Under the pieces are notes generated by a model, which saw nothing but the letters and a program-made list of their open reading frames with translations, searched no databases and was not told where the DNA came from. The position numbers and the translations under genes were made by a program. Positions 6,280-31,993 of a DNA stretch of 64,000 nucleotides are shown here, in pieces (position 1 is the stretch's first letter; each line of letters begins with the position of its first letter). The stretch is from a virus, in the IMG/VR virus record IMGVR_UViG_3300042301_004349, positions 107,172 to 171,171 of that record; one strand, given 5' to 3'.

Positions 6280-7875
6280 TTAAACTGTTTCTAAACCGTG
6301 TACAATCACTTTACCATAGAATTCAGGACGAACCATTTTCTTAGCGTAACGAGTCATCAAACCTTTACGTGGAGTAAATGTTGTTGGATCGTATACTAAT
6401 GGAGTCATCATTACTGGGATATATGGAGCGAATACAGCACCTGTTTCCAAGAACTGAGCACCTTTGTAACCCATCAAGATGATGTTTTCAGTGAAGTAAG
6501 GGTTTTTGTAAACTTTGTAACGGCTGTTTAAAGAACCGATCTTTTGGATACCGAAGTTGAATTCAGCTTTATCACCATCACCATCAGAAGCAAATCCTGG
6601 GATTGATTCTAAGATAGTAGCTACAGTTGGAGATACTACTAAGAAGTTAGCACCACCACGTAATGTTAATTGGTGAATCTTGTTAGAAACTTTCTGTAAT
6701 TTAGTTCCTAAAGTTTGGAACCAACCACCTTGAGTGTTGAAGAAAGTGTTTGTTAAAGCAGCGAAAGAGCTACCGTTCCAAGCCACGTTGTTCTGAGCTG
6801 ACCAATATTCAGTTGTAGAAGTTGGTACGTTCTTAATCAACATTTCTAAGATTTCTAAATCGATTTCCATAGAGATGTACTGGCTCATTAAGCTAGTTAA
6901 TTCAGCTTCAGCATCGATTGAATGGTAAGCATTCAAATCCTGAGCGAATTCTGGAGTCCATTGTGCTTTTAACTTACGAGTCTTAGCAACAACTGCTTCA
7001 GACTTCATGTTAACATCCAATGAAGGGATAACGATTTGAGAAGCGCTATTAGCGTTAGGAACGCTATAATCAGCTCTATCTTCGAAATCACCACGAGCGT
7101 TATCACGGTTAGCTTTGTTGAAGAACAATACTACGTTTTCTTTAGCACCACCGTCTACTACGTAAACGATATCGCTACCTACAACTTTAGTGTACTGAGG
7201 TAATACTTTAGATTCGTCAGCAGTAGAACCACTAATGAAAGTACCACGAACAGCTTCAACATCTAAATCTGTAATACCAGCAGCACCAGTAACAGTTACT
7301 TTTTTCAAAGTAGTTAAAGATACTGTTGTATCATAATTAACATCAGCTAAAGTAGCAGAAGCAGTAGCAACTGAAGCAGAAGCAAATGATTGAGAGAATT
7401 GGTTGATTGAATAACCAAATTTACCAACACCATACAAACCTTTTGCTGTATCAGTTGATTTTAAATCAGTAGAAGCACCATATAAAGATCCTTCAAATGC
7501 TTTCTTATCTGTACCATATTTGAAGTCAAGATAGAAAATAAGACCTGAAGGTAAGCTCATAGATTGAACTGAAACGAATTCTTTAGCGCTGATATCACCG
7601 AATACACGACGAACTAACGGTAAAGCAACTCCAGCCCAGTTCTCACCGAAACCAGCACCGAAAGTAGCTGCACCACCACCTAAACCAGTGTTGTTGCTTT
7701 CTACTACTAATTGCTTAGCTTGGTTTTCTAACAAGATAGCCATGTTGTTCTTCTCGATTTCATTCTTAAGACCTTCTAAAAGGCCAGACTTAGTCCACTT
7801 AGAAACTAAGGTATTAGCTGTATCCATTACACGAGCGTAAGGATTAGCTGATTCTAATAATTGTTGAATTTCCAT
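6280..7875 (-). CDS. gp23-like major capsid protein
   Basis: At 531 residues it is close to T4 gp23 (521). The region after residue 65 matches the T4-type mature N-terminus: a Gly-rich stretch, then WAGVALPLVRRVFGDI and FVSVQSMSLPSGLIFYLDFKYG, an arrangement shared with gp23. The C-terminus TRYAKKMVRPEFYGKVIVHG is also typical. The first 60 residues form a helical propeptide ending KQLVVE before SNNTGLGGG, which I predict as the prohead protease cleavage site. The very N-terminus, MEIQQLLES, also has the leader pattern. It follows the scaffold gene and ends in a strong terminator. Many SGS-type insertions appear in the central domain. Confidence 0.93.
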   Translation of the reverse strand: MEIQQLLESANPYARVMDTANTLVSKWTKSGLLEGLKNEIEKNNMAILLENQAKQLVVESNNTGLGGGAATFGAGFGENWAGVALPLVRRVFGDISAKEFVSVQSMSLPSGLIFYLDFKYGTDKKAFEGSLYGASTDLKSTDTAKGLYGVGKFGYSINQFSQSFASASVATASATLADVNYDTTVSLTTLKKVTVTGAAGITDLDVEAVRGTFISGSTADESKVLPQYTKVVGSDIVYVVDGGAKENVVLFFNKANRDNARGDFEDRADYSVPNANSASQIVIPSLDVNMKSEAVVAKTRKLKAQWTPEFAQDLNAYHSIDAEAELTSLMSQYISMEIDLEILEMLIKNVPTSTTEYWSAQNNVAWNGSSFAALTNTFFNTQGGWFQTLGTKLQKVSNKIHQLTLRGGANFLVVSPTVATILESIPGFASDGDGDKAEFNFGIQKIGSLNSRYKVYKNPYFTENIILMGYKGAQFLETGAVFAPYIPVMMTPLVYDPTTFTPRKGLMTRYAKKMVRPEFYGKVIVHGLETV

Positions 7876-7901: not shown

Positions 7902-9053
7902 TTAATACTTTGTTATACCTGCTAACTTTTGGAATCTAGAAATTTGTTCGTTTGTTTCAACGATTTGTTTGCTAGGTGAATTGCCAGCTGGTTTTGAAGC
8001 GAATCCTTTAATGATTCCTTCTTTTACCATACCTTTTGAAGTTTCTTTAGCTTCTAAAGACTCGTTAAGAGCTTCAAATACTAATTTAGCTTCGTTTGGT
8101 GTAGTTGCTTTGTCAAAAGCGTTAATTACTTTAATTTTGTTGTCTTCAGATAAATTTTTAGCTTTGAAAATCTTGTTAACATACAATAACTTAGCGTTCA
8201 ATAAGTTAACTTCATTCAATTCATTACGTAAAGTTTTGATTGTAGCAACTGCTTCATCCAATTCTTTTTCGTCTTTTTTAGCTTTCTTAGCTTCATCTAC
8301 TACATCTTCATTTGCTTCGTTTGTATCTAAAGCATCTAATTCAGCTAATAGTTCTTCTAAGTTGATTTCGTCTTCTGCCATTTCTGGTTCAGCACCATCC
8401 ATTTCAACTTCATCATCCATCATTTCTTCTTCACCTTCAGCTTCGCCGCCTTCTAATTCAGAATCTACGATGTCTTTGATAATGTCTTTTAAATCTTCGA
8501 TGGTTAAATCAGCTACTGACATTTCTTCTTCAGGCATTTCTTCAGTCTCTTCTTCAGTTTCTTCTTGACCTTCGTTTCTGGCACTGAAATCAGATCCAGA
8601 ATGTGTACCCATTTTTGAGGTACCAGCAGCTGCTAATTTTTCTAATTCAGCATACGCTTTCTTAGCCATAGGTCCACCTTTTTTAATAAGAGATTTAATA
8701 CCGTTGATGATAACTTCTAAACCAGCACCGGCTGCATTAGATGGATCATATCCACCACTTGCTCCAGTTACTTCGTCAATCTCTTCATCAGAACCTTCTT
8801 CAAGTTCTAATTCAGCTAAAAACTCGTCTAAATTCAACTCTTCTTCCATGTTTTCTTCATAGGAAGGAGCTACTTCATCGATTTCTTCTTTACCTTCGTC
8901 ATCTTTTGCCATTTCTTCTAACTTAGAAGCTAACATAGACTGTAGATGAGGAGTTAAAGTTTCTTCAAGAGCAGCTTTTGCATTAACTAACGCAGCTTCG
9001 CGAATAGTTTTTGCTTCAGCAATTGCTTGCTTAAATAATTCTTTGTTTGTCAT
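7902..9053 (-). CDS. gp22-like prohead scaffold protein
   Basis: The scaffold forms the core around which the capsid assembles and is then degraded by the prohead protease. This protein is 383 residues, very acidic (long runs of Glu and Asp from about 50-110 and 170-260) and largely helical, and lies between the protease and capsid genes as in T4. It starts MTNKELFKQAIAEAK, with a cleavable AIAE site. Its last 16 residues, NEQISRFQKLAGITKY, match the leader peptides of several other proteins in the window, which suggests that this tail is the element binding the shell or core. A Gly-rich segment lies between the acidic runs near residue 100. Confidence 0.85.
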   Translation of the reverse strand: MTNKELFKQAIAEAKTIREAALVNAKAALEETLTPHLQSMLASKLEEMAKDDEGKEEIDEVAPSYEENMEEELNLDEFLAELELEEGSDEEIDEVTGASGGYDPSNAAGAGLEVIINGIKSLIKKGGPMAKKAYAELEKLAAAGTSKMGTHSGSDFSARNEGQEETEEETEEMPEEEMSVADLTIEDLKDIIKDIVDSELEGGEAEGEEEMMDDEVEMDGAEPEMAEDEINLEELLAELDALDTNEANEDVVDEAKKAKKDEKELDEAVATIKTLRNELNEVNLLNAKLLYVNKIFKAKNLSEDNKIKVINAFDKATTPNEAKLVFEALNESLEAKETSKGMVKEGIIKGFASKPAGNSPSKQIVETNEQISRFQKLAGITKY

Positions 9054-9196: not shown

Positions 9197-9805
9197 CTAG
9201 CAAAGAGGGCAAACGCCTGTTTGGTTGCAAATAATTTCTGTGATTAATCCGCTTACTTTACTATAATCTTTACTAACTTGTGTTGTTTTACCTTCAGATA
9301 ATGACATGTAAGCACCAGGTGTTGAAGGTACTGATACTAGATCCCAACATAATAGTTCGAAATCGTCTTGTACTTCTACTGTTTCACCCAATTGCTTAAC
9401 ACTACCCATACCACGAGATGAAATACCTAATGGAATGCCTGCTAATACAATTTCTTGTGCGATTTTACCTGATGGGGTGTTTAGTAATTCTAATTCACCC
9501 ATAACATCGTTACCTTCCCACCACACTTTAGTAATGATGTGAGAAACGTTATTTAAATTAATAATTGATGATTCTGGGTGGTCTAATTCACCTGTTGCTG
9601 TTCTAGTAGCTACCGGCCCTTTAGTATACATTTCCACTTGCTTTCTAAGAATATTCATAGGGTAAACACGTCCATTGCCGTTTTTAACTTCGGCTTCTTG
9701 TAATTTACCTTTGATACGCATTCTACTACCATTCATTTCTTTACCTTCAGATAAAGTAAGTTTGGCTACGTGGAATGGTGTATGGTCTACTAATAGTTGT
9801 TTCAT
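9197..9805 (-). CDS. gp21-like prohead core protease
   Basis: This serine protease matures the T4-type prohead by cutting after [L/I]-x-E. The 202-residue protein has the family hallmarks: ATGELDHPESSIIN with the candidate catalytic His near residue 75, and PLGISSRGMGSV with the candidate nucleophile Ser near residue 132, then a Trp-Asp segment (CWDLVSVPSTPGAYM). It is about the T4 length (212). Two possible self-cleavage sites, KLTLSEG and MSLSEG, are present. It ends with an odd Cys-rich tail NQTGVCPLC. It lies directly upstream of the scaffold and capsid genes. Confidence 0.9.
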   Translation of the reverse strand: MKQLLVDHTPFHVAKLTLSEGKEMNGSRMRIKGKLQEAEVKNGNGRVYPMNILRKQVEMYTKGPVATRTATGELDHPESSIINLNNVSHIITKVWWEGNDVMGELELLNTPSGKIAQEIVLAGIPLGISSRGMGSVKQLGETVEVQDDFELLCWDLVSVPSTPGAYMSLSEGKTTQVSKDYSKVSGLITEIICNQTGVCPLC

Positions 9806-11047: not shown

Positions 11048-12207
11048 TATTGGTTTAAGTTTTTAATTTTGTTATTAAGTTGATTAACCATTTCTGAGAT
11101 ATTAGCAACATTCTTTTGGGTTGCTTTCCAATATTTAATTCCTTCTTCCCCTTCACTTAATTCTTGTTTCATACGAGATGTATATTCAACAATACGATCA
11201 ATTTCAGCTAATTTACGTTTTACTTCACGGATAGCTTTATGTAATTGTTCAGATTTAGTTCTATATGTTACTTCTTTTTTGAACTTACCATAGGATACTT
11301 CATTAAGTACTCCTTGTTCAATAATATCGTTTAATTTCATTTCGTATATTTTTTTATAATCAAACATTTTTGAGTTTTTTGGTAGTGTTAAATCTGCTAC
11401 TGTCCAACCCATTTTCTTTAAAAATTTTACTGCTCTATTTTCACCTTTTTTCTTCCCAAAAGCACGAGGTGTAGCATAATTTTCACCTGATCCTGCACTA
11501 AAAGAAGCACCACTACCAGTTACATTTTCCTCGTTCATTATTTCACGAGCGTATGCTTTAATAGCTGATTTTAATGCTGCTCTTTTTTCTTCATCTAGTC
11601 CTTCTCTTCTTATTAAATTTATATTTTGTGTAAAAAGTTGGGTATGAGATTTAAATATATCAATAGTTGATTTCATTACTTTATAAAGTATTTCAACCCC
11701 TTTGATAATTGGTTGTATCCATCCTAAATAAGAACTCCAATCTGTAAAGGTAGAAATAAGCTTGTCTAACCCTGCTTCAGATATATATTTTTTAATAAAA
11801 TCTTCAATTGAAGTTGGTATAACACTACGCATCTTATCTATCACATATGTAGCAATAGATGCAATTCCTGTAGCTGCTAAAAGTTTCTTCCACCCTTCAA
11901 GACTAGTAATTCGAGCTACTATATCATTGATAGAAGTAACTAAATTATTTAATCCTTTTTCATTTAAAAAGTTTGTTAAGAGTCTTAATGTGCCTGTTCT
12001 AAATCTATACCAAATATCATCTGCAAAACGATGTAATATTCTTGAATTTTGGATTACCTGCCACATAACAGCAGCAGCATCTTTCCAATCATTAATTTTA
12101 GTAATTACATCATCATATTTGTCTTGAGCATATGCTTTCACACTATCCAAGAATGCTTCTTGTAATAGTTGTTCTTGTAAAAGTTTATTTTCTATGCTCA
12201 ATTCCAT
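11047..12207 (-). CDS. Leader-bearing helical head protein, unknown function
   Basis: The 386-residue protein begins MELSIENKLLQEQLLQEAF, containing two LxQE sites suited to prohead protease cleavage. The body is helical with hydrophobic stretches (GWKKLLAATGIASIATYVI near residue 110) and a charged C-terminal coiled coil (residues 310-386). It sits in the head operon between another leader-bearing gene and the small basic gene, with one-base overlaps on both sides. A packaged internal or core protein is inferred; no family is recognised. Confidence 0.55.
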   Translation of the reverse strand: MELSIENKLLQEQLLQEAFLDSVKAYAQDKYDDVITKINDWKDAAAVMWQVIQNSRILHRFADDIWYRFRTGTLRLLTNFLNEKGLNNLVTSINDIVARITSLEGWKKLLAATGIASIATYVIDKMRSVIPTSIEDFIKKYISEAGLDKLISTFTDWSSYLGWIQPIIKGVEILYKVMKSTIDIFKSHTQLFTQNINLIRREGLDEEKRAALKSAIKAYAREIMNEENVTGSGASFSAGSGENYATPRAFGKKKGENRAVKFLKKMGWTVADLTLPKNSKMFDYKKIYEMKLNDIIEQGVLNEVSYGKFKKEVTYRTKSEQLHKAIREVKRKLAEIDRIVEYTSRMKQELSEGEEGIKYWKATQKNVANISEMVNQLNNKIKNLNQ

Positions 12208-12899
12208 TATTTGTATCCTAACTTAGTTAATACTTTTTCAACTTCGCTACGTACAGTAGATTTACTAATTTTACCTGGTTCAAATCCTAAAGTTTTAAAC
12301 CAAGCTTCAAAAGCTCCAGGAAATTCCTGAATGCTGTTAATATTTTTGGATTTATTAGCTACAGTAGTTGCAGATGATTGAGCTCTATTTAAAGCAGCAA
12401 CATCTGAAGGTATGTTAGATGATTTTTCAGGAGCTGTTGCTTCTTCATTTAAATTCTTACCTAACTCATCTACTATTTGATAAACAATAGATTGTTGTGC
12501 TTTTAAATATCCTGCTTCTGCTTCAACAGCCTCATCATATCCTCTATATGTGCTTCCCTCTTGTCTACCTATAATAAGAGAAAGACCATTTGGTTGAATA
12601 CTAATAGTGCTTTGAGTACTGTTTTTATCAGCTGTATTTACTCCTTTTGATAATGAACTGTTTCTATTACCAGCAAATTCTTTTGCTAATTCTACTAATG
12701 CTTTAGCTTCTTCAGTAGAAAGAGTTACTTCATTCTCACTCCAACCACCACCTAATACACTAAGGGTTATTTGATTATTACCCTCTTTACTAGTACCTTT
12801 TTGAATATTTAAAGTATCAACAGCTTCGTCTAGTTTAGATTCAGTTATTAAACCAGCTAATTGCTGCATTCTTCTAATTTCGTTAATTTGTGTTTTCAT
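12207..12899 (-). CDS. Leader-bearing head protein (QLAGLITE type)
   Basis: The first 20 residues are MKTQINEIRRMQQLAGLITE, the leader type shared with two proteins at 21.8-22.9 kb and with the C-terminus of the scaffold; cleavage is predicted after LITE. The mature part is 210 residues, Asn/Ser-rich, with no recognised domain. A C-terminal segment from about residue 190 (FPGAFEAWFKTLGFEPGKIS) resembles a small helical domain. The operon position among head genes supports packaging into the head. Confidence 0.6.
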   Translation of the reverse strand: MKTQINEIRRMQQLAGLITESKLDEAVDTLNIQKGTSKEGNNQITLSVLGGGWSENEVTLSTEEAKALVELAKEFAGNRNSSLSKGVNTADKNSTQSTISIQPNGLSLIIGRQEGSTYRGYDEAVEAEAGYLKAQQSIVYQIVDELGKNLNEEATAPEKSSNIPSDVAALNRAQSSATTVANKSKNINSIQEFPGAFEAWFKTLGFEPGKISKSTVRSEVEKVLTKLGYK

Positions 12900-13786: not shown

Positions 13787-15649
13787 TTATTTTTCTATAC
13801 CCTTGATGTTATCTTCATTTAATAAATTAGATTCTACAGGTTTTGTATTCTCGTATAATGTTATCTTTTTCTGTTCAGCAGCTTCTTTAGCTTTTTTCAA
13901 TTCAGATAATGCTAGTGGTGAACCACCCTTATACGCTGTTTGCATTGGGTTTTTATCCTGGTTAGCAGTCATATTGTATTCCTTACTACCAATTGGGTCT
14001 TTACCAAATGAACTTTTCTGAGTGCCGAATATAGATGCTTTTTGTGTTGGGCGACCAACTGGATCTTTTTCATCATATCCTATTGGTACAGCACCTTGTC
14101 CACTTCTACCCTTACCATATAGTGAAGCTAAGTCATGTGGTGTACCGAATGATCTACCTGTTTTAGCTGGGTCATTACCTTCATTTTCAACTTGTTGAAG
14201 TCTAAATGCACGTTTTTTATCCTCTAATACTAAATCACGATATTCATCTATTTGATCATCACTAAATTGGAATATTCTATCGTATATAAAATCAGATGGG
14301 ATAATACCTGTATCAAGAGCATCTTTAGCTAATGATACTTTTTCCTTCCACATTGCTACCTGTTCTTGTTGGTAGATGATTGAAGGAGGTGTTAATGATA
14401 ATTCAAAGCTTGTTAATGAATCACCATCAAATCCTTGTGTATATAAGTGTACTAATGCAATTTTATGCAATTCAGATACAATTACTTTTTGGATACGTTC
14501 AATTGTACGAGCAAATCGAATATCTTCAGCAGCTAATGTAGCCTTACCAGTTAAATCTTTTTCAAATCCAAAGAATGCTTTAGGTACCTTAAGAGCAGCT
14601 AACATTTCATCACGTAAGAAGTTTACATCCTCAATACCGTTGTATTCTAAACCTTTTAAGGTATCAATTTTAGTATTTTGGTTTGCACCCCTAACTGGTA
14701 TAATAAAATCTTCAAGTGAATTTTGAATATTGAAACGTAAATTATATTCACCTGTTTGAGCATCCATGAATGGAGTCTTCTTCATTTTATTGGTGATACG
14801 CTCCATGTAGTTATCAACTTCATGAGCTGGTATTCCACCTACGTCTACATAAAAAATACGTTTTTCTGGAGATCTCATAATACGATGTATTAACATCGCA
14901 TCTTTCATTAATGTATATTGCTTGTAAACCTTACGAGCTGGTTCAATAAATGAACGTCCATAAGGAAGATAATTAGCATCAGCATATAATCTAAAGTGAG
15001 CAACTTCATAGTTTTCAAAGCGCTTCTTCATATTACTTTTATCCATATGAAGCGTACTTGCTAATGCATTTGGATCATATTCATAATAAACCTCAAATGG
15101 GTTTTCAGGATTTAAACCTTCTCTTCTAGCTAACTCATATGATGATAAAGGCATAACATTATATACCCCCATTTCACTATTAATTTCTAAGAATAAGTAA
15201 AAATCACCGTATTTACACATTTGGCGAGTCCAGGGCCAAAGATTAAATTCGATATTTAATATATCATAAAATAAATTATAAAGTACTCTTTGTACTTTTT
15301 CATCTGAAGAACGTATTTGTAATACTTCTCCAGCTTCATTTTTTAATGTAGTTTCATCAGCAACAATATCAAGAGCAGAAGCAATAATCGATTCTGAATC
15401 CATTGCTTCGTAATCATTGTATAATTGTGTTCTTAATGTCTGATAGTTAATAGCAGGATTGAACATAGCTGACATGCTAGTTCTATGTAAACGTGTAAAA
15501 CGGTCTACTAAGCTATTTGTTTGTACACTTCCATAGGCTTGAACACGATCCGTGTCTACCACTTTTAATTGATTTCCACCAATGTTTCTTACGATAACAT
15601 CAGTTGAAAATAATCTTCTTAGCCTTGAAAATAAATCTGTATTAGCCAT
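13787..15649 (-). CDS. gp20-like portal protein
   Basis: The portal is the dodecameric ring at the head vertex through which DNA enters and leaves. The 620-residue protein has T4 gp20-type features: an N-terminal MDSESIIASALDIVADE segment, a central QYTLMKDAMLIHRIMRSPEKRIFYVDVG segment, and LKVPKAFFGFEKDLTGKATLAAED further on. The C-terminal 120 residues are Gly/Lys/Asp-rich and probably disordered. It follows the terminase gene with only a short gap, rather than being separated by sheath and tube genes as in T4. Confidence 0.92.
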   Translation of the reverse strand: MANTDLFSRLRRLFSTDVIVRNIGGNQLKVVDTDRVQAYGSVQTNSLVDRFTRLHRTSMSAMFNPAINYQTLRTQLYNDYEAMDSESIIASALDIVADETTLKNEAGEVLQIRSSDEKVQRVLYNLFYDILNIEFNLWPWTRQMCKYGDFYLFLEINSEMGVYNVMPLSSYELARREGLNPENPFEVYYEYDPNALASTLHMDKSNMKKRFENYEVAHFRLYADANYLPYGRSFIEPARKVYKQYTLMKDAMLIHRIMRSPEKRIFYVDVGGIPAHEVDNYMERITNKMKKTPFMDAQTGEYNLRFNIQNSLEDFIIPVRGANQNTKIDTLKGLEYNGIEDVNFLRDEMLAALKVPKAFFGFEKDLTGKATLAAEDIRFARTIERIQKVIVSELHKIALVHLYTQGFDGDSLTSFELSLTPPSIIYQQEQVAMWKEKVSLAKDALDTGIIPSDFIYDRIFQFSDDQIDEYRDLVLEDKKRAFRLQQVENEGNDPAKTGRSFGTPHDLASLYGKGRSGQGAVPIGYDEKDPVGRPTQKASIFGTQKSSFGKDPIGSKEYNMTANQDKNPMQTAYKGGSPLALSELKKAKEAAEQKKITLYENTKPVESNLLNEDNIKGIEK

Positions 15650-15682: not shown

Positions 15683-17260
15683 CTAACCCAACAACCATCG
15701 TGTATCTTCTACATTTCCACGACCATCATCTATTTTGTATGGGTTGCCACCAGATATCCACTGCCCACCCCCATACATTTGATCTCCAGTTTTTCTAAAG
15801 TTTAATAAACTAGAAACCGCTAAATCACGACCTATTTGCGCAAATCTGGATGCTGTGTCTCTAATAAACAGACCCATTGATAATGATAATACTAAATCAT
15901 CATTGTACCCATTTTGTGCTTGTCCCTTACCGTGCATCCATATAAACACTCTTAATTCTTCAAGTAAGCGTTTCGAATGAAAGGTAAATGATTTGTCTCG
16001 AAGGTACGACTCCATTTTTGAGATAACAAGTGGTCTTGTCTTTGCTGATGTAGTAAATCCAGGAACTGTTTGCCCTGAGTCTAATTTTGATAGATATTTG
16101 TCAGCACTTAATTCACCATATGAACGAGGTGAATAGTATAAATTAGCGTATTCACGGTCTATAATAGTATTTACAACATCCCAACCAATATTAGCATTTT
16201 CCACCACTAAAAGCGCATTATTATATTCAGTAGCAACTGATACTAACATGTTTCCATATTCACGTGTGCCTATTTGAGATTTAAATTCAGCCACTTGTTG
16301 ACATGCTTCAAGATCAATAACTTGGAATGCAGAATAGTCACTTCCATCACCTCGGGCCACGTCAGCCGATACAATATAATTTTTATTATAATCCGGGTAT
16401 TGCCATATCCAAAAATCACCACCCATGAATCGACGTTCAACAGGGTCCATTATAAACCCATCATAATATTCTAATGTTTCTGGGTCAATTACTGTTGCTC
16501 CAGATCCTAAAAAGTCACAATCATATTCCTGCGCGAAATCTCTTGCAGTCATATTTTCTTTTTCATTCTTAACCCAAGCAGCATCTCTATCAGGGTGAAC
16601 ATCCCATTTTAGTTGGATAGGAACAAAACTATTTTTACTTAATTCTGCTTCAACCCAAGTTTTATGGAACCAGTTACCTACACCGTTTGGTGAAGATAAT
16701 GCTACGCAACCACCCCCTGTTGAAATGGTAGGTTTAATCGCGGTATAAATTTTATCAATACCTTCAATAAAGGCGGCCTCATCCATAATCAACCAAGATA
16801 CAGCAAATGAACGACCAGCATCACTAGAGGCTGATGTTGCTTTAATAAATGATCCGTTTGATAATTTTAATGAGGTTTGGTTTGATGCTACTGGTTTAGA
16901 ACCTTTTAACCATGATGGTAAGTTATTATACATGAATTGAACTTTCTCAACCATGTTTTGTGCAGTAAGTTGCTTAGTAGCAATACACAATATTGCTTTG
17001 TCTTTATGGAATAACATTAACCACAAAGCATAACCAGCACATAATGTAGAAATACCTAACTGACGAGACTTATTAATAATATTGTAATCGTTTGCTCGAA
17101 ATGATTTTAATACATCTTCCTGGAAAGGGTATAGATGGAATAAAATTCTGCCTTTAATTGGGTGGGTAATGAAACAATATTTTCTAAAGAAATGGACAGG
17201 ATCAGAAGCACATTTAATGTATTCCTGTTTAATTATATCTTTTATATTTTGATCACTCAT
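15683..17260 (-). CDS. gp17-like terminase large subunit
   Basis: This is the DNA-packaging motor: an N-terminal ATPase and a C-terminal headful nuclease. Visible motifs are a Q-motif region, the Walker A-type SRQLGIST near residue 60, Walker B SWLIMDEAAFIEG near residue 155, and the coupling motif ALSSPNG. The nuclease has SADVARGDGSDYSA near residue 298, VVENANIGWD near 350 and YNDDLVLSLSMG near 452, giving acidic metal ligands. The usual Walker A lysine (SRQLGKT in T4) is replaced, so the Arg of SRQ or another residue must take its role. It lies behind a terminator and candidate late promoter. No separate small terminase was recognised. Confidence 0.93.
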   Translation of the reverse strand: MSDQNIKDIIKQEYIKCASDPVHFFRKYCFITHPIKGRILFHLYPFQEDVLKSFRANDYNIINKSRQLGISTLCAGYALWLMLFHKDKAILCIATKQLTAQNMVEKVQFMYNNLPSWLKGSKPVASNQTSLKLSNGSFIKATSASSDAGRSFAVSWLIMDEAAFIEGIDKIYTAIKPTISTGGGCVALSSPNGVGNWFHKTWVEAELSKNSFVPIQLKWDVHPDRDAAWVKNEKENMTARDFAQEYDCDFLGSGATVIDPETLEYYDGFIMDPVERRFMGGDFWIWQYPDYNKNYIVSADVARGDGSDYSAFQVIDLEACQQVAEFKSQIGTREYGNMLVSVATEYNNALLVVENANIGWDVVNTIIDREYANLYYSPRSYGELSADKYLSKLDSGQTVPGFTTSAKTRPLVISKMESYLRDKSFTFHSKRLLEELRVFIWMHGKGQAQNGYNDDLVLSLSMGLFIRDTASRFAQIGRDLAVSSLLNFRKTGDQMYGGGQWISGGNPYKIDDGRGNVEDTRWLLG

Positions 17261-18056: not shown

Positions 18057-19217
18057 TTATTTTTTTATTCCTGCGTAATATTGCATTCTGTGTTTAAATG
18101 CACTTTCATTTAAATTATCCATTTCATCTTCATCCTCAAGTGGATTTTCGATTGGTGGTGTTGGGATGTATTCTTTACCTGCTTTTTTAGCAATATCTTT
18201 TTGCAAATATTCTGATTTAGCAACTAAAGCATCAATTCTTTGTTCTAAGCTTGCTTTTAAGTCAGTTAAACCCTTAATTTCTCTAGCGGTACTACCTACG
18301 TCATTAATGTCGCCAGGTGTACTTCTATATCTTTTAGTTTTTAATAGATTAGATTTAACACTTCTTAAACGATCAGATAATTTTGAATATTCCATCCAAT
18401 CTTGATAATCTTCATCTGAAATAGTTGATGCAGATTTTGATTTTGTTGCTGTTGCCATTTCAGGTTCTGGTTCTTCTCCTGATGCTTTTGCTGCTGCAAA
18501 TGCTGCTTCTACTTCTTCATCTGACATATCTTCTTGTCCTGATATTCCTAGTGATGTTAACTCACGTGGAGTGAACATATTGCCTAAGTCTCTTCTACCT
18601 CTTGGGTTATAAAATAATTCCTCATCCCCCGTTGCTGTTGCAGACGGAGCTGCAGCTGGTCTTGGATTTGTTAGACGAGGTGCTGCTTGTTCAGATGATG
18701 AAACAATAACACCAGCATCAACTAATTCCATAAAATCTTTATTGATTGGGTTTTGTTTGTTGTAACCCATATCACCAGCTACGTTCATTTTTGATACTGC
18801 TGATCCTGCTGCTTGAAGAGCGGCTAATATTTTAGCTTTTTTACCTGAGAATCCTGCAATTTGCTCATCAGTAACATCATCTGATAGTTGATAACGAACA
18901 CCAACATTTGCCATTTCATCCAATTCTGTTGAAGACATACCTGGTTTAGATAGTTTATTAACTCTAATTTGAGCTGCTTGCATATTTTTATTAATAGCAT
19001 TTATTTCAGCATCCTTTCCAGGTTTGTCTGCTGGGGCTACTTGTTGGGTACTTAATTCTTGTCTTTTCTTATTAAGTGCGGCCAATTGTGCTTTTTCAGC
19101 AGCCAATGCCATATCTTGTGCTTTTTTATCCTCAGCAGCACCTTCTTCAATTACTTCAAGTAATGCTTCACGGATAATATCTTGCAGTTCAGATTTTTTC
19201 ATAGTATCGTTATTCAT
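18057..19217 (-). CDS. Leader-bearing protein with scaffold-like C-terminal peptide
   Basis: I start at the first ATG after the promoter box (MNNDTMKKSELQ); the next ATG five codons on gives MKKSELQDIIREALLE, which fits the leader family exactly and may be the true start. The protein is Ala/Glu/Lys-rich and largely helical or disordered. Its C-terminus, LNESAFKHRMQYYAGIKK, resembles the scaffold tail NEQISRFQKLAGITKY. Having targeting-like peptides at both ends suggests a core component of the prohead. No enzymatic domain is seen. Confidence 0.6.
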   Translation of the reverse strand: MNNDTMKKSELQDIIREALLEVIEEGAAEDKKAQDMALAAEKAQLAALNKKRQELSTQQVAPADKPGKDAEINAINKNMQAAQIRVNKLSKPGMSSTELDEMANVGVRYQLSDDVTDEQIAGFSGKKAKILAALQAAGSAVSKMNVAGDMGYNKQNPINKDFMELVDAGVIVSSSEQAAPRLTNPRPAAAPSATATGDEELFYNPRGRRDLGNMFTPRELTSLGISGQEDMSDEEVEAAFAAAKASGEEPEPEMATATKSKSASTISDEDYQDWMEYSKLSDRLRSVKSNLLKTKRYRSTPGDINDVGSTAREIKGLTDLKASLEQRIDALVAKSEYLQKDIAKKAGKEYIPTPPIENPLEDEDEMDNLNESAFKHRMQYYAGIKK

Positions 19218-19228
19218 AATTTTATACG

Positions 19229-19237
19229 TATAAATAT
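19229..19237 (-). promoter_or_regulatory. Candidate late promoter box
   Basis: The minus strand reads ATATTTATACGTATA across the stop of the kinase-like gene and just before the leader-bearing core gene. Confidence 0.45.
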
Positions 19238-19755
19238 TAAAGATTTTGTAAAATTGTAGCGATACGTTCTTCTGTTGTACCTTCAACCTTAATTAATTTA
19301 TTAGGTTTATATTCATCTAATGATAATTGTATAGCTACATCTATTTTTCTACGATATTCTAAATCAGTTTCACGAATACCATTATCTTCCATTTCAACGC
19401 CATTGGGAGATACATAAATAACCAAATCATAATAACCACGAAGATGCATAGCTGCTTCAACAAATGAACGTTTTTCCCAACCACCAATAGTTTTTGATGA
19501 TAAAGTAAACGAACACACATCCCATATTGTACGATCTGTAATAATCTTAGGTTGTAATAATTCACTAGCACGTTCTGCTAGAAATATAAATTGTCCTGGT
19601 AGTATAGAATCTGTATTCAAAGGAATACCTAATCCGCTAAGATATTTACTACGTTCAGTTTGAATAATATAGTCTTTAAATTGTTCTACCTCACCCAATG
19701 CTTTGGCTAATGTAGTTTTACCTACAGACATTGTTCCTGCTAATCCTATTCTCAT
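19237..19755 (-). CDS. NadR-like P-loop kinase
   Basis: The 172-residue protein opens with MRIGLAGTMSVGKTTLAKAL, a Walker A loop, and has LQPKIITDRTIWDVCSF near residue 90 as the Walker B/DR region. The pattern matches AAA_28-type ATPases, the family containing the ribosylnicotinamide kinase domain of NadR and phage nucleoside kinases. It may phosphorylate a nucleoside or NAD precursor in host cytoplasm. It lacks the capsid leader seen in its neighbours. The start overlaps the upstream gene by four bases. Confidence 0.7.
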   Translation of the reverse strand: MRIGLAGTMSVGKTTLAKALGEVEQFKDYIIQTERSKYLSGLGIPLNTDSILPGQFIFLAERASELLQPKIITDRTIWDVCSFTLSSKTIGGWEKRSFVEAAMHLRGYYDLVIYVSPNGVEMEDNGIRETDLEYRRKIDVAIQLSLDEYKPNKLIKVEGTTEERIATILQNL

Positions 19756-21807: not shown

Positions 21808-22296
21808 TTAGTTATTTTCTTTATCTCTTACTACAGCACCTACAAGTAATCCTAGGAATAATACTAAAGCCCCAGCAGCAAATAACATTACACCTCGCTC
21901 ATCACTCCATGCCCAGTTACCACCAATAAAGAAACTAGGAAGGCCTATAGCTATAGCAACTTGTTGTATTTTATCACCTAATCCTTCTTCTAACATTCCT
22001 TCATTTAAATTTGAAAGAACTTTACTTACTTTTTTAATATTATCGATAGTAATATCTGACATTGAAAGTTGGTCTGCAGGTTTTCCAATTGCTTGAGCAG
22101 CCATGTCTTTCATTTTAGAAATTTCTTCATCAGAAAATTTATTAGCAACTTGTTTAACTTTATCAGCAATTTTATTTTTTACTTTATCAAAAATCCCAGA
22201 TAAAGATATTTCTTCAAGTTTTTCAGCATATTGTCCCTCAGTTATAATGCCTGCTAATTTTTGCATTTTGAGAGTTTGTTCATTTAAGATAGTCAT
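21808..22296 (-). CDS. Leader-bearing small membrane protein
   Basis: The leader MTILNEQTLKMQKLAGIITE carries the NEQxxxxQKLAGI module of the scaffold tail, with predicted cleavage after IITE. The mature protein has an amphipathic helical region, then two hydrophobic segments near residues 110-130 and 135-155 (MLFAAGALVLFLGLLVGAVV), ending in charged residues. It is a close architectural relative of the next gene upstream. A packaged membrane protein delivered on infection is the inference. Confidence 0.6.
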   Translation of the reverse strand: MTILNEQTLKMQKLAGIITEGQYAEKLEEISLSGIFDKVKNKIADKVKQVANKFSDEEISKMKDMAAQAIGKPADQLSMSDITIDNIKKVSKVLSNLNEGMLEEGLGDKIQQVAIAIGLPSFFIGGNWAWSDERGVMLFAAGALVLFLGLLVGAVVRDKENN

Positions 22297-22317: not shown

Positions 22318-22911
22318 TTAAACAGAGGCTATTTTTTGTGCCAATTGCATTACTTCTGCTGTTTTAAACGCTGCTGCCCCCCCTTCTAATCCTTTTACAA
22401 TTAAATTAACAGCATTAACTGCTTCTACTCCTGAACCTATAGCGGCGGCTGCTAATATAGCTGCATATATTCCATGAGCCATATCATGTAAATTTGATGA
22501 TTCATCAAATGGGTCTTGATCACCATATTTTTTAGGATATGCTTTTTTTAATAAAAATGCAATTCCTTCAATATATTTGTGTTCTAATTTATGACCTGCT
22601 TTTTGTAAAGCAGATCCTATTTTTGTAGACCCTATAGCCCCATAAGAAAAATATTGAGCAATTAAATCAGCACCTTTACCTAATAAATTTAATAAACCAG
22701 GTGCACCTGCTGTAACTGCAAATAAGGTTAAAAGTCCTTCTTTCATTTCTCCATCTTTAGGAGATGGTTTGATTGATGATGAAGCTGATTTGAGATCCCC
22801 TAAGAAATCTAATAAACCTTTCTCAGCAGCTTGTTCAGCTTTAGCTTCTTCCTCAGTAAGGATTCCTGCTAATTTTTGCATCCGAAAGTATTGTTCATTT
22901 AACATTGTCAT
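22318..22911 (-). CDS. Leader-bearing small protein with hydrophobic segments
   Basis: I start at MTMLNEQ because a promoter box lies inside the longer reading frame and because this aligns with the neighbouring paralogous leader MTILNEQ. The leader ends QKLAGILTE. The body has hydrophobic stretches (LLTLFAVTAGAPGLLNLLG and GIYAAILAAAAIGSGVEA). It probably arose with the neighbouring gene by duplication of the leader at least. It is predicted to enter the head; function is unknown. Confidence 0.6.
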   Translation of the reverse strand: MTMLNEQYFRMQKLAGILTEEEAKAEQAAEKGLLDFLGDLKSASSSIKPSPKDGEMKEGLLTLFAVTAGAPGLLNLLGKGADLIAQYFSYGAIGSTKIGSALQKAGHKLEHKYIEGIAFLLKKAYPKKYGDQDPFDESSNLHDMAHGIYAAILAAAAIGSGVEAVNAVNLIVKGLEGGAAAFKTAEVMQLAQKIASV

Positions 22912-24089: not shown

Positions 24090-24632
24090 TTATGCTTCTG
24101 CTGGAGTTTCTTCTGCTGGTGCTTCAGGAGTAGGTGGGGATTCAGTTCCTGCTAAATCATTAAATGCTGCTTCACCAGCATCTGGTGCTGGTGCTTCTGC
24201 AGGAGCTGCGGCATCGCCTGCACCCGCATCTGCTACTGATCCTGCATCTTCTTTAAGTGCAGGAGATAATGATAATAAATTTGATACAGCTTGGCTTGCT
24301 CTATTTGTAGCGCTACCCATAGCTAAATCATATCTTTTACCTGCTATTTTAGCTATAAAAGTACCACCTGAATATATTAACTGAAAGTCTAATCCATTGA
24401 TTAATTCAATATTGAGTGTTGTTGGTTTTGGAGCAACAACAGTAACGCTGCTTAAATATCTACTAAATGAAGGAGACATTATTGATTCAACAGCATCTTT
24501 TAATTTAGGAAAACGATATATTAAATATAAAGATTTTTCAGCACGCTTGATAGCCTGCTCTTCCTCTTGCAATCTTTGTTTGATTGCTTTTTTAATATAT
24601 TTTTCTAATAATATTTTTTTAATATTCTCCAT
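24090..24632 (-). CDS. Leader-bearing protein with Pro/Ala-rich C-terminal tail
   Basis: The leader [10 protein letters not shown] precedes a strongly basic helical segment ([16 protein letters not shown]). A central alpha/beta region follows, and the last 60 residues are an Ala/Pro/Glu-rich disordered tail. A predicted cleavage site lies after ILLE. The start overlaps the upstream gene by 14 bases. No domain is recognised. Confidence 0.5.
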
Positions 24633-24990
24633 TATTTTCGATTTCGCTAGTTTCTTCAGTTAAATATTGTTCTATACTATTCATGTAATCTGAAGCTAGA
24701 GTAATATATGCTGATACCCAACCTGGTAGTTGTTGGTTTGGTTCGATCATTTTATAAATTTTGGTTGCATTTTCAACCATACTTCTTAATTCACTTTTAG
24801 CCATTGTAGCTTCATGATCTTCAGTTTTAGGCCAAGATAAGTGAGTTTCTTTGACCAAAGCAACAGCAATTTTTTTACGACGGCTAGCAAGATAAGAATC
24901 TGTCTTATTTACTTTACCATCGTTATTGATGTCTTTATCTTCTTTTCCTACTGGATCTAAACCTTCTACTAAATGTGTTAATTTAATCAT
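24619..24990 (-). CDS. Leader-bearing protein with EF-hand-like loop
   Basis: The leader [10 protein letters not shown] is followed by [17 protein letters not shown], a calcium-binding loop pattern of the EF-hand or dockerin type (D-x-N-x-D-G-x-V-x-x-x-D). The remainder is helical and ends in an acidic tail. It fits the cargo pattern; whether it binds calcium is untested. It overlaps its neighbour by 14 bases. Confidence 0.55.
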
Positions 24991-26722: not shown

Positions 26723-29339
26723 TATTTTTTTCGTTTATATGTTTACGAAGTAATTCTTTAAATTCTTTTATATGGCCTGGGTGGTCTGCTAAATATTCAT
26801 TTACAATATACTTATGTGCCTCTGCCAACCCTCGTTGTTGTAATACTGTTAATAAATCTGCTGGTGAAGCTAATGGTAAAGCATTGTTACCACCCTCATT
26901 ACCAACCAATACATAGTTACTATTACCTGGTTGTACGTTAATGGATGCTATAATTTGTTGGTTTGCTAATCTAATAATATAGATTTTACTAGCACCAATT
27001 TGGATTACTCTTCCTACTCTACCTGAAGTACCTAATAAATTATTACGACGAGAAGCACCTCTATCACCATTCGGATCAACACGGGATGCATTAATTGCAT
27101 TTATTCTTCTAAATATAGCTCTTGGTAAACGAAGGAAAGCTGCTTCTAATCCTATTGCATTCATTTCTTCACGAACGTTAATATCACCTGTTAGTGGAGC
27201 TGCTTGAGTTTGTTGACGAGGAGCATTTGGAACACCAGCTGGTCTTCCTCTTCTACCTGTTGTTGGGGCTGCTGCCACACCAGCGGCAGCTGGAGCTGCA
27301 GTGCCTAATATTTGTGCTACTTTTGAAGTAGGAATATTTACAACAACTAATTTACCTGATGTAGAAGATATTGAGTAACTTGTTCTTGGATTTGCAGTAT
27401 TAACAATATAAGGAACATCATTGTATATAACAGATCTAAGTCTGCTACCAGCTTGCATCGGTGGGTTAGCACCAATAATAGCTTTTCTAACATCACCCCC
27501 TTGATAACTTGCTACATTTTTCATAGCATTGATATATTGTTCATCACTAAATGCCATGTTTTTAGATCTAAAATGATCAAATAAAGCAGAATATACTGCT
27601 GTATCTCTGGAAGGGGAATTTAAGGTTTTTTGTCTCCAATCTAATCCTTGTCGACCATAAAGTGCTGTTGGTATTAAACTATTTAATCCTCGGGCCAATT
27701 CATGAACAATTATTGGTGATTCCTCACTATTAGTTAAAATTACATCAGCGGGACTGCCTCTCCATTCAACTGTTCTTTTATCTTGAGGGACAGATCTTAG
27801 GAATGAAACATATGCTTCTTTATCTATAGTAGCAGGAATATTTTCTTCATATCTAATCAATGATAAGGCATTCTTTTGGAACCCTTCATTATCTTTTTGT
27901 TGAGAAAATATTTCTTGTACATCTTCATCATCAAAAGGTACTTTAGAAACTTTATCATTTTCTATTTTATATGAAGCAAATGAATTAGAATCAATTAATA
28001 TTGTTTTATTCTTAAGGTCTTTAGCAATAATAGATGAATTATCATCTGTTTTTGCCTTTTCAATTACATTATTTAATACACTTTTATCAATAATTTCATC
28101 AGAAACTAATGATATTAAATTTTTAAAAGGTATTTGACTTAAATCTGGGTAGTCTAGTAAGTATTTTGATGTACGTTTATTTAATTTAATATTTGGATAA
28201 TCATCTTCTTCAGTAAATAGACCTACTTTAATATCATCTCCTAAAGTTAATTTAATAATATTTTCATTATCTTTAGTAACATATATTCTTTCATTTTTAG
28301 GAAGTTCCCATTTTTCAAATTTAACTAAAAACTTTTTAACTTCAAATGGAATAGAATCTAAAGATAAAAATTTCAAATTGATTTTATCTCTCATATTTGC
28401 TATGATAGACTTTACATCTTGATTTGAAAATTTATCTAAGTTTTTAACTAAAGTAAGACTATCTAAAATACCAAAATTAGTAGCAATAGTATTAGCAATT
28501 TGAGGATATTTAGGTAAATATTTTTCTACGAAAGTATCATTACTAATATCTTGAAATAGGTCTTTACCTTTTCTAACAACTAAATATTGTTCTTTAACTT
28601 GAAAAGAAAATTTAATCCATTCTCTAATACCAACAGGTCTATTTTTATAAGATTGATTTAATTTTTCTTTAGAAGATAAGGGGATGTACTTAAATACACT
28701 TCTTAAACCAACAACTGAAGGAAAATTAGATTCAATAAAACTCCATGGTTCCCATCTATCCCACTCTGTAGCTCTACCACCAACATCATTGTTTGATCTA
28801 TCTGATGCTTTATAAGTATTATCACTACCAACAACAACCACAAAGAAACTCTTACGATCACTATTAGGTAGATTTGTATCTTTTACAAGATAAAATGTTG
28901 GGTTTTTTCTACCATCATCGTAACGATAGTTACCAAATGAACCTCTAGTAATACACCAAGATTCACCTCTACCAAAAGTTAAACAATTTTCTTCTTTAGA
29001 ACCATTATAAATAATTAAACCATTTTGATCATAAACAACATCTGGTGTAGTGTCTACTTCATCTTCAGGTTCTTCAACACCTTTAGTTGATGTAACTAAT
29101 TTTATTAATTTAGATAAATTATATTTACGTAAATCTTTTTCAGTAACTTTAGGTGAATTTTTTAAAGAATCAAAACGTTCAATATATGCTTTTAATTGAG
29201 CATCACTTATTTGAATATTTAAATCATCAGCTTCTTCCCTAAATTTAGCCATCAATTTATTAATCTCACCTTCTGAATATTCATTAAGTGGGAATAAATT
29301 ATGGGTTACGTGTAATATAAATTTGTCTATTGCTCTCAT
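26712..29339 (-). CDS. Large cargo-block protein with WCI motif and AT-hook
   Basis: The 875-residue protein has a helical N-terminus, then ENCLTFGRGESWCITRGSF near residue 118 and NPTFYLVKD, a motif block I recall from uncharacterised phage proteins. A central strand-rich region of about 400 residues follows. Near residue 695 is a Pro/Ala-rich linker with TGRRGRPAGVP, a classic AT-hook. A C-terminal alpha/beta domain ends in a basic helix. The leader is less clear than in its neighbours (FPLNEYSEG near residue 20). An injected DNA-binding protein is possible; no catalytic site is identified. Confidence 0.5.
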   Translation of the reverse strand: MRAIDKFILHVTHNLFPLNEYSEGEINKLMAKFREEADDLNIQISDAQLKAYIERFDSLKNSPKVTEKDLRKYNLSKLIKLVTSTKGVEEPEDEVDTTPDVVYDQNGLIIYNGSKEENCLTFGRGESWCITRGSFGNYRYDDGRKNPTFYLVKDTNLPNSDRKSFFVVVVGSDNTYKASDRSNNDVGGRATEWDRWEPWSFIESNFPSVVGLRSVFKYIPLSSKEKLNQSYKNRPVGIREWIKFSFQVKEQYLVVRKGKDLFQDISNDTFVEKYLPKYPQIANTIATNFGILDSLTLVKNLDKFSNQDVKSIIANMRDKINLKFLSLDSIPFEVKKFLVKFEKWELPKNERIYVTKDNENIIKLTLGDDIKVGLFTEEDDYPNIKLNKRTSKYLLDYPDLSQIPFKNLISLVSDEIIDKSVLNNVIEKAKTDDNSSIIAKDLKNKTILIDSNSFASYKIENDKVSKVPFDDEDVQEIFSQQKDNEGFQKNALSLIRYEENIPATIDKEAYVSFLRSVPQDKRTVEWRGSPADVILTNSEESPIIVHELARGLNSLIPTALYGRQGLDWRQKTLNSPSRDTAVYSALFDHFRSKNMAFSDEQYINAMKNVASYQGGDVRKAIIGANPPMQAGSRLRSVIYNDVPYIVNTANPRTSYSISSTSGKLVVVNIPTSKVAQILGTAAPAAAGVAAAPTTGRRGRPAGVPNAPRQQTQAAPLTGDINVREEMNAIGLEAAFLRLPRAIFRRINAINASRVDPNGDRGASRRNNLLGTSGRVGRVIQIGASKIYIIRLANQQIIASINVQPGNSNYVLVGNEGGNNALPLASPADLLTVLQQRGLAEAHKYIVNEYLADHPGHIKEFKELLRKHINEKNNAN

Positions 29340-30202
29340 TACTTATTGAACTTTACTTTTGCTTTATCAGTATTAGCTACAAATTGTTTACCTTTTTTAG
29401 ATCCTGCTACTTTTTTACGAGCAGTTGCTGCACGTTCTGCTTTAGTTAATCTATTTGCTTTAGCACGAGGTAAACAACGAGTAGTTGCTTTATCTTTTTT
29501 CATTGTACCACAAGGACCAGTTATGTTACCTTGTGTATCAATTCTAACCCAATCTTCTTTTTTAAACCAATCGCGTAGTGATTCAGTTAAACTTTTTACA
29601 TTGAAATATTTTTTTAAATCAATATTATTACTCTTAGCATCTTCTAAACTAATTGTTTCAGGAACTATACCTTCTTCCCACTCAGTTTCAGGGGTAGCAA
29701 GTTTAACATCACTATTATTTAAAATGATTGCTTTTATTTCTGGTATGTTTCCTATTTTAAAAGCACCTAAGCGGTGATTTCCATCTAAGATTAAATATTT
29801 TCCAGGCAATAGTGGGTGGTTTAAGGCTACGACTGGTGGGAACGATTCTATACCTTTTTCTTTAGCAACCTTTATCATTTTTTCAACATAAGATTTTTTC
29901 TCTGTGTTGAAGTAATTAAGATCTTTATTTGGTTCGTTACCAATACAATCGTTAATTTTTAAAATTTTTATTTCACCACTTATATTTTCAGCAATGTCGC
30001 TTCCTTGAAAATCCGGATATATAATAGTATTATCTTCTATATCATCTACTTCCATCAAACCTTTACATACTTTAACAGCACGGCCAGAAAGATAAGCTGA
30101 TGGTTTTTCACCAGCAGCTCTACGACGATCGTAATAGGCTTTGCCTTTTTTGCAAAGCTTTTCTAAAAGAACTTCATTTAATATTTCTTGTAGTTTTATC
30201 AC
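29339..30202 (-). CDS. Leader-bearing ParB/Srx-like fusion protein
   Basis: After the leader MIKLQEILNE comes a Lys/Arg-rich region (KKGKAYYDRRRAAGEKPSA) with two Cys. Residues 80-165 read FPPVVALNHPLLPGKYLIL followed by DGNHRLGAF, the signature of ParB/sulfiredoxin-type nucleotide-binding domains. The last 80 residues form a basic Cys-containing domain (ITGPCGTMKKDKATTRCLP, then TKAERAATARKK) known as a small stand-alone phage module. The fusion suggests a DNA-acting effector delivered with the genome, which is inference. Confidence 0.6.
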   Translation of the reverse strand: MIKLQEILNEVLLEKLCKKGKAYYDRRRAAGEKPSAYLSGRAVKVCKGLMEVDDIEDNTIIYPDFQGSDIAENISGEIKILKINDCIGNEPNKDLNYFNTEKKSYVEKMIKVAKEKGIESFPPVVALNHPLLPGKYLILDGNHRLGAFKIGNIPEIKAIILNNSDVKLATPETEWEEGIVPETISLEDAKSNNIDLKKYFNVKSLTESLRDWFKKEDWVRIDTQGNITGPCGTMKKDKATTRCLPRAKANRLTKAERAATARKKVAGSKKGKQFVANTDKAKVKFNK

Positions 30203-30468
30203 GACTTATATATCTTTAATAATAACTTATCATGGCCTTTTATAACACGATGCCAAGTATGTCTTGGTATAAATATCGGTTTGTCCATAGATATTGGTAG
30301 TTCATTTTCTAGTTGAATCAACCAATTATTAGAATTAATAGATTCTATAAGACGATTTTCATCGTCACGATGCCAAAGGAGTTCGATAGGATCTATACTC
30401 TCATCGAACTCTCTTATAATATATTCTTTTGTTGTTTCTAGATCAACATATGGTCTACCAGTATCCAC
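30199..30468 (-). CDS. Small cupin-like phage protein
   Basis: The 89-residue protein has the pattern LLWHRDDENRLIES, then LIQLENELPI, then IFIPRHTWHRVIKGHDKL, resembling a widespread family of small cupin-like proteins in T4-type phages, with candidate His ligands. It overlaps the upstream gene by 14 bases and the downstream one by four. Function is unknown. Confidence 0.6.
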   Translation of the reverse strand: MDTGRPYVDLETTKEYIIREFDESIDPIELLWHRDDENRLIESINSNNWLIQLENELPISMDKPIFIPRHTWHRVIKGHDKLLLKIYKS

Positions 30469-31093
30469 TAAATGATGTTTTAAAACCTAATAATTTAGCA
30501 TATCTTGGTAAACGACATGACCAATATGATGCTTTTGTTCTATCTTTTTTCTGAGAGCAATTATGACGAGCTGCGAATGCCTTGCGTGCTTTAGGATTAT
30601 TTAGTTTTGCACGTAATCCTGTAGTATCACCAAATGATACTTTTTTAATTTTACCTTTATCTCGAACATAAACATAGAACTTTTTAGAACCACCACGCTT
30701 TGGTTTTCCAATTGGAGGTGTTTTCTTTTTATCTTTAGTCTCGTCTATTTCCATAGACTCATGTAAATCAACTAATTCATCTAATGAAATTGGATAATCT
30801 AATGGTACTCTAATACCGTTATACACCCCATATTCACCTATGTTTGATTCTAATAATTCAGCATCATCTTCAGTTACAGATAATATACCTTTATTGTATA
30901 ATTCACGTGCTTCACGGAATAGAGAAAAATAATTTTCAGATAATGGGCGATAGATATTGTGAATTAATTGTTTACCTTCTGTGATATGATATTTCATACC
31001 TTCAGATAACATTATTTCTTGTCCTTCTGATATTAGTTGAGGGCCATTACATCCGCAATCTTGTTCTTCAATTAAATCACTTAATTTTATCAT
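30455..31093 (-). CDS. Leader-bearing protein with phage FAARHNC domain
   Basis: The leader MIKLSDLIEEQ is followed by CGCNGP and by further possible cleavage sites (QLISEG, IMLSEG, YHITEG). The C-terminal 75 residues read KKFYVYVRDKGKIKKVSFGD, then KAFAARHNCSQKKDRTKASYW and SCRLPRYAKLLGF, a domain common in myoviruses with conserved Cys and aromatic residues. Multiple tandem LxEG sites suggest that the first 60 residues are cut up during prohead maturation. The domain function is unknown. Confidence 0.65.
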   Translation of the reverse strand: MIKLSDLIEEQDCGCNGPQLISEGQEIMLSEGMKYHITEGKQLIHNIYRPLSENYFSLFREARELYNKGILSVTEDDAELLESNIGEYGVYNGIRVPLDYPISLDELVDLHESMEIDETKDKKKTPPIGKPKRGGSKKFYVYVRDKGKIKKVSFGDTTGLRAKLNNPKARKAFAARHNCSQKKDRTKASYWSCRLPRYAKLLGFKTSFSGYW

Positions 31094-31409: not shown

Positions 31410-31993
31410 TAGGATTGTGTTATTGATTTTACTTTTTCAATATATTCTTGGAATTCTTTAATTAGTTCATTATTATTTCCACCAGACCATTGTTCCATTT
31501 CACCATTTTCAGTAACAATTTGTTCAGGATGTACATCATTTATTAAATCTTGTAATATTTGTTCAAGATCACCTATAAATCCTTTAGCGTTACGTTGAAC
31601 CATGTCTTGGACGTACGCTTCATATTTACCATCTAAACGCAATTTGGTTTCTCTTTTAATAACACAATCAAAGCATTCTTTATGTATTGCATACATTTTA
31701 GTATCCAATACTTTCTTTTTCATTGCTTTACCGCATTTAGGACATGTTAGTGGAATTTGAAGGGCTTTTTTAACTAAATCTAATTTGGATATGGTCATCT
31801 TAATACCATTCTTAATGGTCCATTTTTTACCATTCTCTTCCCAAATATCTCCTTCTTTATAATCAACGGAAACTTTAGTATAACCTACTTGAGTAGAGAT
31901 TTTATCTCCGTATTTTTTATTAACTATATTTCTTACTCTTTGTACATCTCTTTCTCGAAACTCTTTTTTCAAAACACTTTCGTTACCTATCAT
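31409..31993 (-). CDS. Zinc-ribbon protein
   Basis: I start at MIGNESVLKKEF, whose ATG overlaps the upstream stop as ATGA. The central LTCPKCGKAMKKKV pairs with HKECFDC to form a likely four-Cys zinc ribbon near residues 84-113. Helices follow, with an acidic C-terminus. Similar proteins are found in T4-like marine phages without known function. A role in transcription or packaging cannot be decided. Confidence 0.55.
   Translation of the reverse strand: MIGNESVLKKEFRERDVQRVRNIVNKKYGDKISTQVGYTKVSVDYKEGDIWEENGKKWTIKNGIKMTISKLDLVKKALQIPLTCPKCGKAMKKKVLDTKMYAIHKECFDCVIKRETKLRLDGKYEAYVQDMVQRNAKGFIGDLEQILQDLINDVHPEQIVTENGEMEQWSGGNNNELIKEFQEYIEKVKSITQS

Follow-up and report, generated by a model that had tools for sequence, protein, structure and literature searches.

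A short peptide that ends the scaffold protein of a T4-type phage family recurs at the ends of many unrelated proteins, and we conclude that it is probably a protease-removable capsid-targeting sequence (CTS) that copies the scaffold's C-terminal anchor; its binding, cleavage, packaging and ejection we infer from sequence. The window, the whole stretch of 64,000 nucleotides that was analysed, covers positions 107172-171171 of the 171-kb virus record IMGVR_UViG_3300042301_004349. Its minus strand carries a T4-type head operon of terminase, portal, protease, scaffold and major capsid protein (MCP) genes (Table 1), so that a gp23-family shell protein stands among a full set of phage head genes. 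The protease is 36.5% identical to T4 gp21 and presumably cuts the sites beside the module. By capsid protein, the nearest named phages are Flavobacterium phage immuto (58%), Microcystis phage Mel-JY01 (49%) and Rhodothermus phage RM378 (37%). An earlier note had quoted five peptides from the window, namely the scaffold end, three protein starts and one further protein end; all five are present as described, in frame on the minus strand.

Table 1. Window features bearing on the module (positions are those of the window; bits are scores of the scaffold-tail profile).
Feature	Position	Strand	Basis or remark
Major capsid protein, gp23 family	6280-7875	-	PF07068, E 1.1e-75; phrog_138, E 1.2e-67
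Scaffold (gp22-like core protein), 383 aa	7902-9053	-	Directly upstream of MCP; homology to annotated relatives
Scaffold C-terminal module NEQISRFQKLAGITKY	7905-7952	-	Stop 7902-7904; R373, A378 invariant, L377 nearly
Predicted prohead-protease site I-V-E366/T before tail	7953-7964	-	Predicted cut between 7956 and 7955
Prohead protease, gp21 homologue (Peptidase_S77)	9197-9805	-	PF03420, E 9.7e-31; phrog_207, E 1.2e-53
Leader MKTQINEIRRMQQLAGLITE of protein 12207-12899, between portal and protease genes	12840-12899	-	21.3 bits
Portal	13787-15649	-	Homology to annotated relatives and position
Terminase	15683-17260	-	Homology to annotated relatives and position
C-terminal copy LNESAFKHRMQYYAGIKK of protein 18057-19286	18060-18113	-	10.2 bits
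Leader MTILNEQTLKMQKLAGIITE of protein 21808-22296	22237-22296	-	22.4 bits
Leader MTMLNEQYFRMQKLAGILTE of protein 22318-22911	22852-22911	-	29.1 bits
Second-leader proteins	2183-2536, 2539-2919, 24619-24990, 29339-30202, 30455-31093, 33378-34214	all -	

The window scaffold is acidic and helical, has a disordered linker ahead of its tail and ends in IVE/TNEQISRFQKLAGITKY (the slash marks the predicted cut). We found that the tail motif R[MWF][QK]KLA[GN][IL] ends nearly every scaffold of this gp23 family, with IISEVSEQVSRWQKLAGIIK at the C-terminus in immuto, ILNESNNVVERMKKLAGIVK in Mel-JY01 and LDLERIKRLAGL in RM378, the most distant relative. The earlier note had made its proposal depend on the presence of the module in relatives' scaffolds, and nearly every scaffold examined carries it. 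At about 79 loci with this family's capsid gene, the ORF just upstream is almost always tail-ended, and the layout is the same: a protease-like site, about six residues, R-[MWF]-[QK]-K-L-A-[GN]-[IL], and a few more residues. For G002 the tail was read from L048, a 3.5-kb part with scaffold and MCP being missing from the G002 pieces. The immuto protein gp067 (NC_055915.1, 125626-126867) is annotated as DNA polymerase phi-like; its position and tail mark it as the scaffold.

In an alignment of 53 scaffolds, two tail residues, R373 and A378, never vary, and E366 and L377 hardly do; the scaffold overall is poorly conserved, with a mean column identity of 19%. AlphaFold models (53 scaffolds; mean pLDDT 67) have a long helix at the N-terminus and, at about 250-339, a helical part predicted with confidence; next come some 28 mostly disordered residues as a linker, and then the module, predicted as a short helix (368-377; pLDDT about 77 in its block) directly behind the predicted cut at E366. 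As modelled, this layout is that of a tethered binding peptide: a conserved C-terminal helical segment behind a flexible linker, of the same type as the HSV-1 and P22 scaffold anchors. A search for comparable reuse of the scaffold N-terminus on other proteins gave nothing above background.

To locate copies, we used a profile of 12 positions built from 55 distinct scaffold tails and scanned about 700,000 positions of 20 phage records at a cut-off of 18 bits. The profile returned 18 N-terminal matches in non-scaffold proteins and none at internal positions (six of the 20 records, G011-G016, had been picked for containing a leader, the others not); its 17 C-terminal matches were the scaffolds themselves. 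Profiles with shuffled columns gave no match at 18 bits or above in the same 20 records. Because no leader entered the profile, the N-terminal matches constitute an independent test, and in related phages, too, the module lies at protein ends.

When IMG/VR was searched for exact matches to MQKLAGIITE, 116 stretches came back with 99 distinct instances, 90 of which lie at most 40 residues from the first possible start. Seven of the nine deeper instances follow directly on an NE or SE site, and two of the nine mark protein ends, exactly in L136 and a single residue short of the end in L168. A search of about 85,000 bacterial and archaeal genomes for the same pattern found no exact copy, and no paper in the library that was searched mentioned these peptides. 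In 100 genes with exactly MQKLAGIITE, the peptide is spelled by 62 different 30-base sequences in which all synonymous positions vary; identity of the peptide is a product of the exact search, and the diversity of codons is not. Judged by this free synonymous variation, selection is acting on the peptide and not on the DNA, and the diversity argues against recent spread of a DNA element.

The proteins behind the leaders have little in common. Within one subclade, 131 distinct leader proteins fall into 80 groups without a between-group blastp match at 1e-4, an upper estimate since distant homology could merge some of them. Searches of 56 representative bodies against Pfam and PHROGs yielded only scattered single weak matches. 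The leaders themselves are about 16-25 residues long, short N-terminal extensions like the T4 CTS, and the bodies are mostly small and acidic. Leader genes adjoin the scaffold gene or lie near it in the head region (L008, L012, L020, L039), and one in the window lies between the portal and protease genes, where T4 has gp67 and gp68. In immuto, gp083 and gp230 are leader proteins. Leader genes also form tandem runs; in L107:202-1177 and L165:10785-12561 three successive leader genes have different bodies, an arrangement that recalls the clustered internal-protein genes of T4.

C-terminal copies complete this picture. The weakest window copy is the C-terminal one at 18 kb, and an L195 homologue of its protein (43% identity) ends in INEVVLKRLKKLANI, a clear tail motif. 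Outside the leader group, C-terminal copies resemble the tail of their own clade: a small acidic protein ends in LNESVDMTARWKKLANIK in L317 and LNESVDVAARWKKLANIK in L346, and scaffolds sharing the exact core end in ILSEGNDLAARWKKLANLK; in G004 a 296-residue protein ends in SISKDRWAKLANIKK and the scaffold in RWKKLANLK. We did not count a degenerate candidate at the C-terminus of the window protease (KVSGLITE), relatives of which are without RxxKLAG. The earlier note's claim that the module occurs at N- or C-termini of unrelated proteins as a copy of the scaffold tail is strongly supported by the tail-only profile and the roughly 80 body groups.

The module is bordered by sites of the type cut by T4 gp21, which cleaves after L/I-X-E (PMC9026906). 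Upstream of the tail, [ILV]-x-E occurs in 71 of 72 distinct scaffold tails, and in 52 the spacing from E to R is six residues. In leaders found by the tail profile, and hence not preselected for ITE, the site directly follows LAG[IL] in 17 of 21 cases, against a background of 1.9% (p = 2e-26); these 17 have the gp21-type ending of the T4 CTS, and cutting there is predicted. As such sites adjoin the module and the window encodes a gp21 homologue, the protease probably cuts leader proteins after the module and the scaffold before it. In many leaders (L094-L209) a second (I/L)NE motif lies 3-9 residues further on (ITESQLNE, ITENQINE, ITESEYKAKLNE) and could be a second protease site.

In a capsid-protein tree, the leader-bearing records fall inside one group of 12 (support 97/100), within which no leader was detected in G001 and the partial record G007. 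Each of the 19 family members in the tree, by comparison, has the tail itself (G007 through L029). Given a widespread scaffold tail and leaders limited to a single clade, the tail is probably the older of the two, and other proteins acquired copies of it afterwards. Where both are readable in a record, the leader always occurs together with a LAGI-tailed scaffold and this MCP. Half of 26 further leader contigs (13) are without an MCP; they are probably fragments, since TerL is also missing in 11 of the 13. The N-terminal leader was not detected in several complete or long records of relatives (RM378, Mel-JY01, G001).

A second leader is likewise reiterated: M(I)KLxx(L/I)(L/V)xE (for example MIKLIDLLMEA and MKLTDILDE) starts six window proteins and was found in most relatives. 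Like the first, it has an LxE-like site at its end and could be a further propeptide for head targeting. One such protein, 33378-34214, starts with MIKLIDLLMEA and is possibly a P-loop kinase or zeta-toxin-like protein, and the protein at 31990-33378 (minus strand), which has a short N-terminal leader, is possibly a nucleotidyltransferase-like and NT5C-like fusion; both assignments come from weak Pfam matches only. By eye, 29339-30202 (ILDGNHRLGAF) and G004:49106-49996 (VIDGHHRWSQV) share a ParB/sulfiredoxin-like motif, for which Pfam gave no match in the window protein. The G004 protein starts like the second leader and has a LAN-type tail at its end.

Taken together, these results suggest the following mechanism. 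The scaffold ends in its short R-[MWF]-[QK]-K-L-A-[GN]-[IL] segment, predicted as a helix on a flexible linker. During prohead assembly this tail would bind specifically to a partner, in the likeliest case the inner face of the gp23-type shell protein, the scaffold core being a less likely one. Within one clade, numerous small proteins of unrelated kinds carrying the same helix N-terminally, or sometimes C-terminally, would make the same contact and through it be incorporated into the prohead together with the scaffold. The gp21-type protease would then cut the [ILV]-x-E sites beside the module and free the bodies inside the head, where they could remain with the DNA and be injected. The earlier note had taken the module for a docking peptide that ties cargo to the shell or core; docking is still its most likely reading, and the sequences support that note in part. 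With the bordering predicted sites, which the note lacked, the module would be not a permanently docked peptide but a targeting propeptide that can be removed.

Several observations argue for targeting. The tail ends nearly all scaffolds with its R and A invariant, and its copies are limited to protein ends and absent from shuffles; the module is joined to some 80 unrelated body groups and is selected as a peptide (62 spellings, 100 genes). Protease-type sites border it, a Peptidase_S77 protein is present, and the helix is predicted behind a disordered linker. The leader co-occurs with the LAGI-tailed scaffold and MCP, its core MQKLAGIITE is without an exact match in the cellular genomes searched, and there are precedents in the T4 CTS with gp21 L/I-X-E cleavage (PMC9026906) and in the HSV-1 scaffold C-terminus (PMC7920273). 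Against targeting count the leaderless relatives, the 13 leader contigs without an MCP, and the fact that T4's own CTS is not copied from its scaffold tail. Tail and leader also show no co-variation at the variable hydrophobic position (M/W/F), which counts against it as well; matching of leader and tail variants within genomes, tried as a sign of co-adaptation, came out negative, W leaders accompanying M tails in G020 and G022 and M leaders accompanying W tails in G014, G015 and immuto. We found no paper on the immuto virion proteome.

The tail helix might instead bind the scaffold or another core protein, so that leaders join the core rather than dock on the shell. Internal proteins of T4 are purified along with gp22, and proteins bearing a CTS are found associated with the core (PMC9026906, PMC5694885); moreover, the conserved helical region 250-339 of the scaffold could serve as a receptor; yet such a core-entry tag alone leaves the contact between scaffold and shell unexplained, and the scaffold C-termini of HSV-1 and P22 serve shell or coat assembly. 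We consider this arrangement unlikely, and by analogy we favour the shell over the core, with the gp23-type MCP as the candidate partner. It is more doubtful still that the gp21 homologue uses the module as an exosite by which proteins are marked for processing, with their location in the head a secondary matter. This would account for sites beside the module on scaffold and leaders alike, but a bare L/I-X-E motif suffices for T4 gp21 (PMC9026906), the conserved helix exceeds the length of a docking site, and many window proteins have such sites without the module.

Two explanations without any function in targeting fare worse. That an identical short sequence starts many genes, some of them in tandem runs, could point to a spreading mobile DNA element or a recombination hot spot that happens to encode a peptide at gene ends. 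We regard this as very improbable, given that the 100 genes use 62 different 30-mers and vary at every synonymous position, that the module is in frame at both N- and C-termini, and that the scaffold copy is conserved out to RM378. Chance similarity of short amphipathic helices is thinkable for so short a module, one position of which takes any large hydrophobic residue, but R, K, L, A and G/N are near-fixed and shuffled profiles gave no matches at or above 18 bits against the 18 N-terminal non-scaffold copies, which leaves it a negligible chance.

The targeting reading has a wider form, on which we are evenly divided: that a shell-binding scaffold tail is a general, protease-released ticket for entry into the prohead, naturally reused at either protein end, and that it reveals tens of unrecognised families of proteins that aquatic T4-like phages package and probably inject. 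If true, mimicry of the scaffold anchor would answer, for these phages, how T4-type core proteins are recruited. A targeting signal readable from sequence makes a specific binding test possible, and the module would allow packaged, likely injected proteins to be searched for among the relative-less ORFs of a whole phage clade. It could also serve as a short, naturally occurring tag with which to load cargo into heads of the gp23 type.

The closest known counterpart is the T4 CTS (IPII, IPIII; MKTYQEFIAE/A), likewise a short N-terminal propeptide on small, diverse, unrelated proteins, with a gp21-type L/I-X-E end and in a T4-type head (PMC9026906, PMC3012670). The leader genes and bodies resemble T4 internal proteins, which are highly diverse with only the targeting sequence conserved (PMC3012670), and a T4 CTS of about 10 residues is enough to package foreign proteins (PMC7697877). 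T4 IPII and IPIII start with MKTYQEFIAEA and the leaders are MKKQILSEEFRRMQKLAGIITE-like, with only the L/I-X-E site in common; the module would thus work like a CTS without belonging by sequence to the T4 CTS family. Unlike the T4 CTS, which other core proteins reportedly lack (PMC9958956), the signal here is the C-terminal tail of the scaffold itself; it is found at C-termini as well, and the bodies are mostly acidic. At BLAST sensitivity, 963 T4-type records have a single copy of the T4 gp22 tail per genome, and 59 records have one copy each of the cyanophage scaffold tail. T4 gp22 ends with a 24-residue segment after FVTE; by its size, this would be the 2.5-kDa gp22 fragment that stays in the mature T4 head at 115 copies (PMC9026906). 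Giant phages such as SPN3US and phiKZ have N-terminal propeptides that the prohead protease removes and that were proposed to be CTS-like (PMC5694885, PMC10052503), but their head propeptides are mostly much longer, and a counterpart of T4 gp22 had not been confirmed there (PMC5694885). The module and its predicted layout recall scaffolds of other viruses as well. We know of no natural reuse of the HSV preVP22a C-terminal segment on unrelated cargo proteins. As in preVP22a, a short hydrophobic C-terminal segment is joined to a scaffold that a maturational protease processes; the last 25 residues of the HSV-1 scaffold contact the shell protein via 12 hydrophobic residues (PMC7920273), and a similar contact would be expected here. 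The C-terminal helix-turn-helix part of the P22 scaffold is essential for capsid assembly, and scaffold-fused cargo is packaged (PMC9962691); that use of cargo is artificial, whereas here natural proteins carry a copy of the tail. Encapsulin cargo-loading peptides are likewise short N- or C-terminal peptides that load cargo into a capsid-like shell (PMC11190991), but the module belongs to a gp23 shell with a full phage head operon, a scaffold and a release protease.
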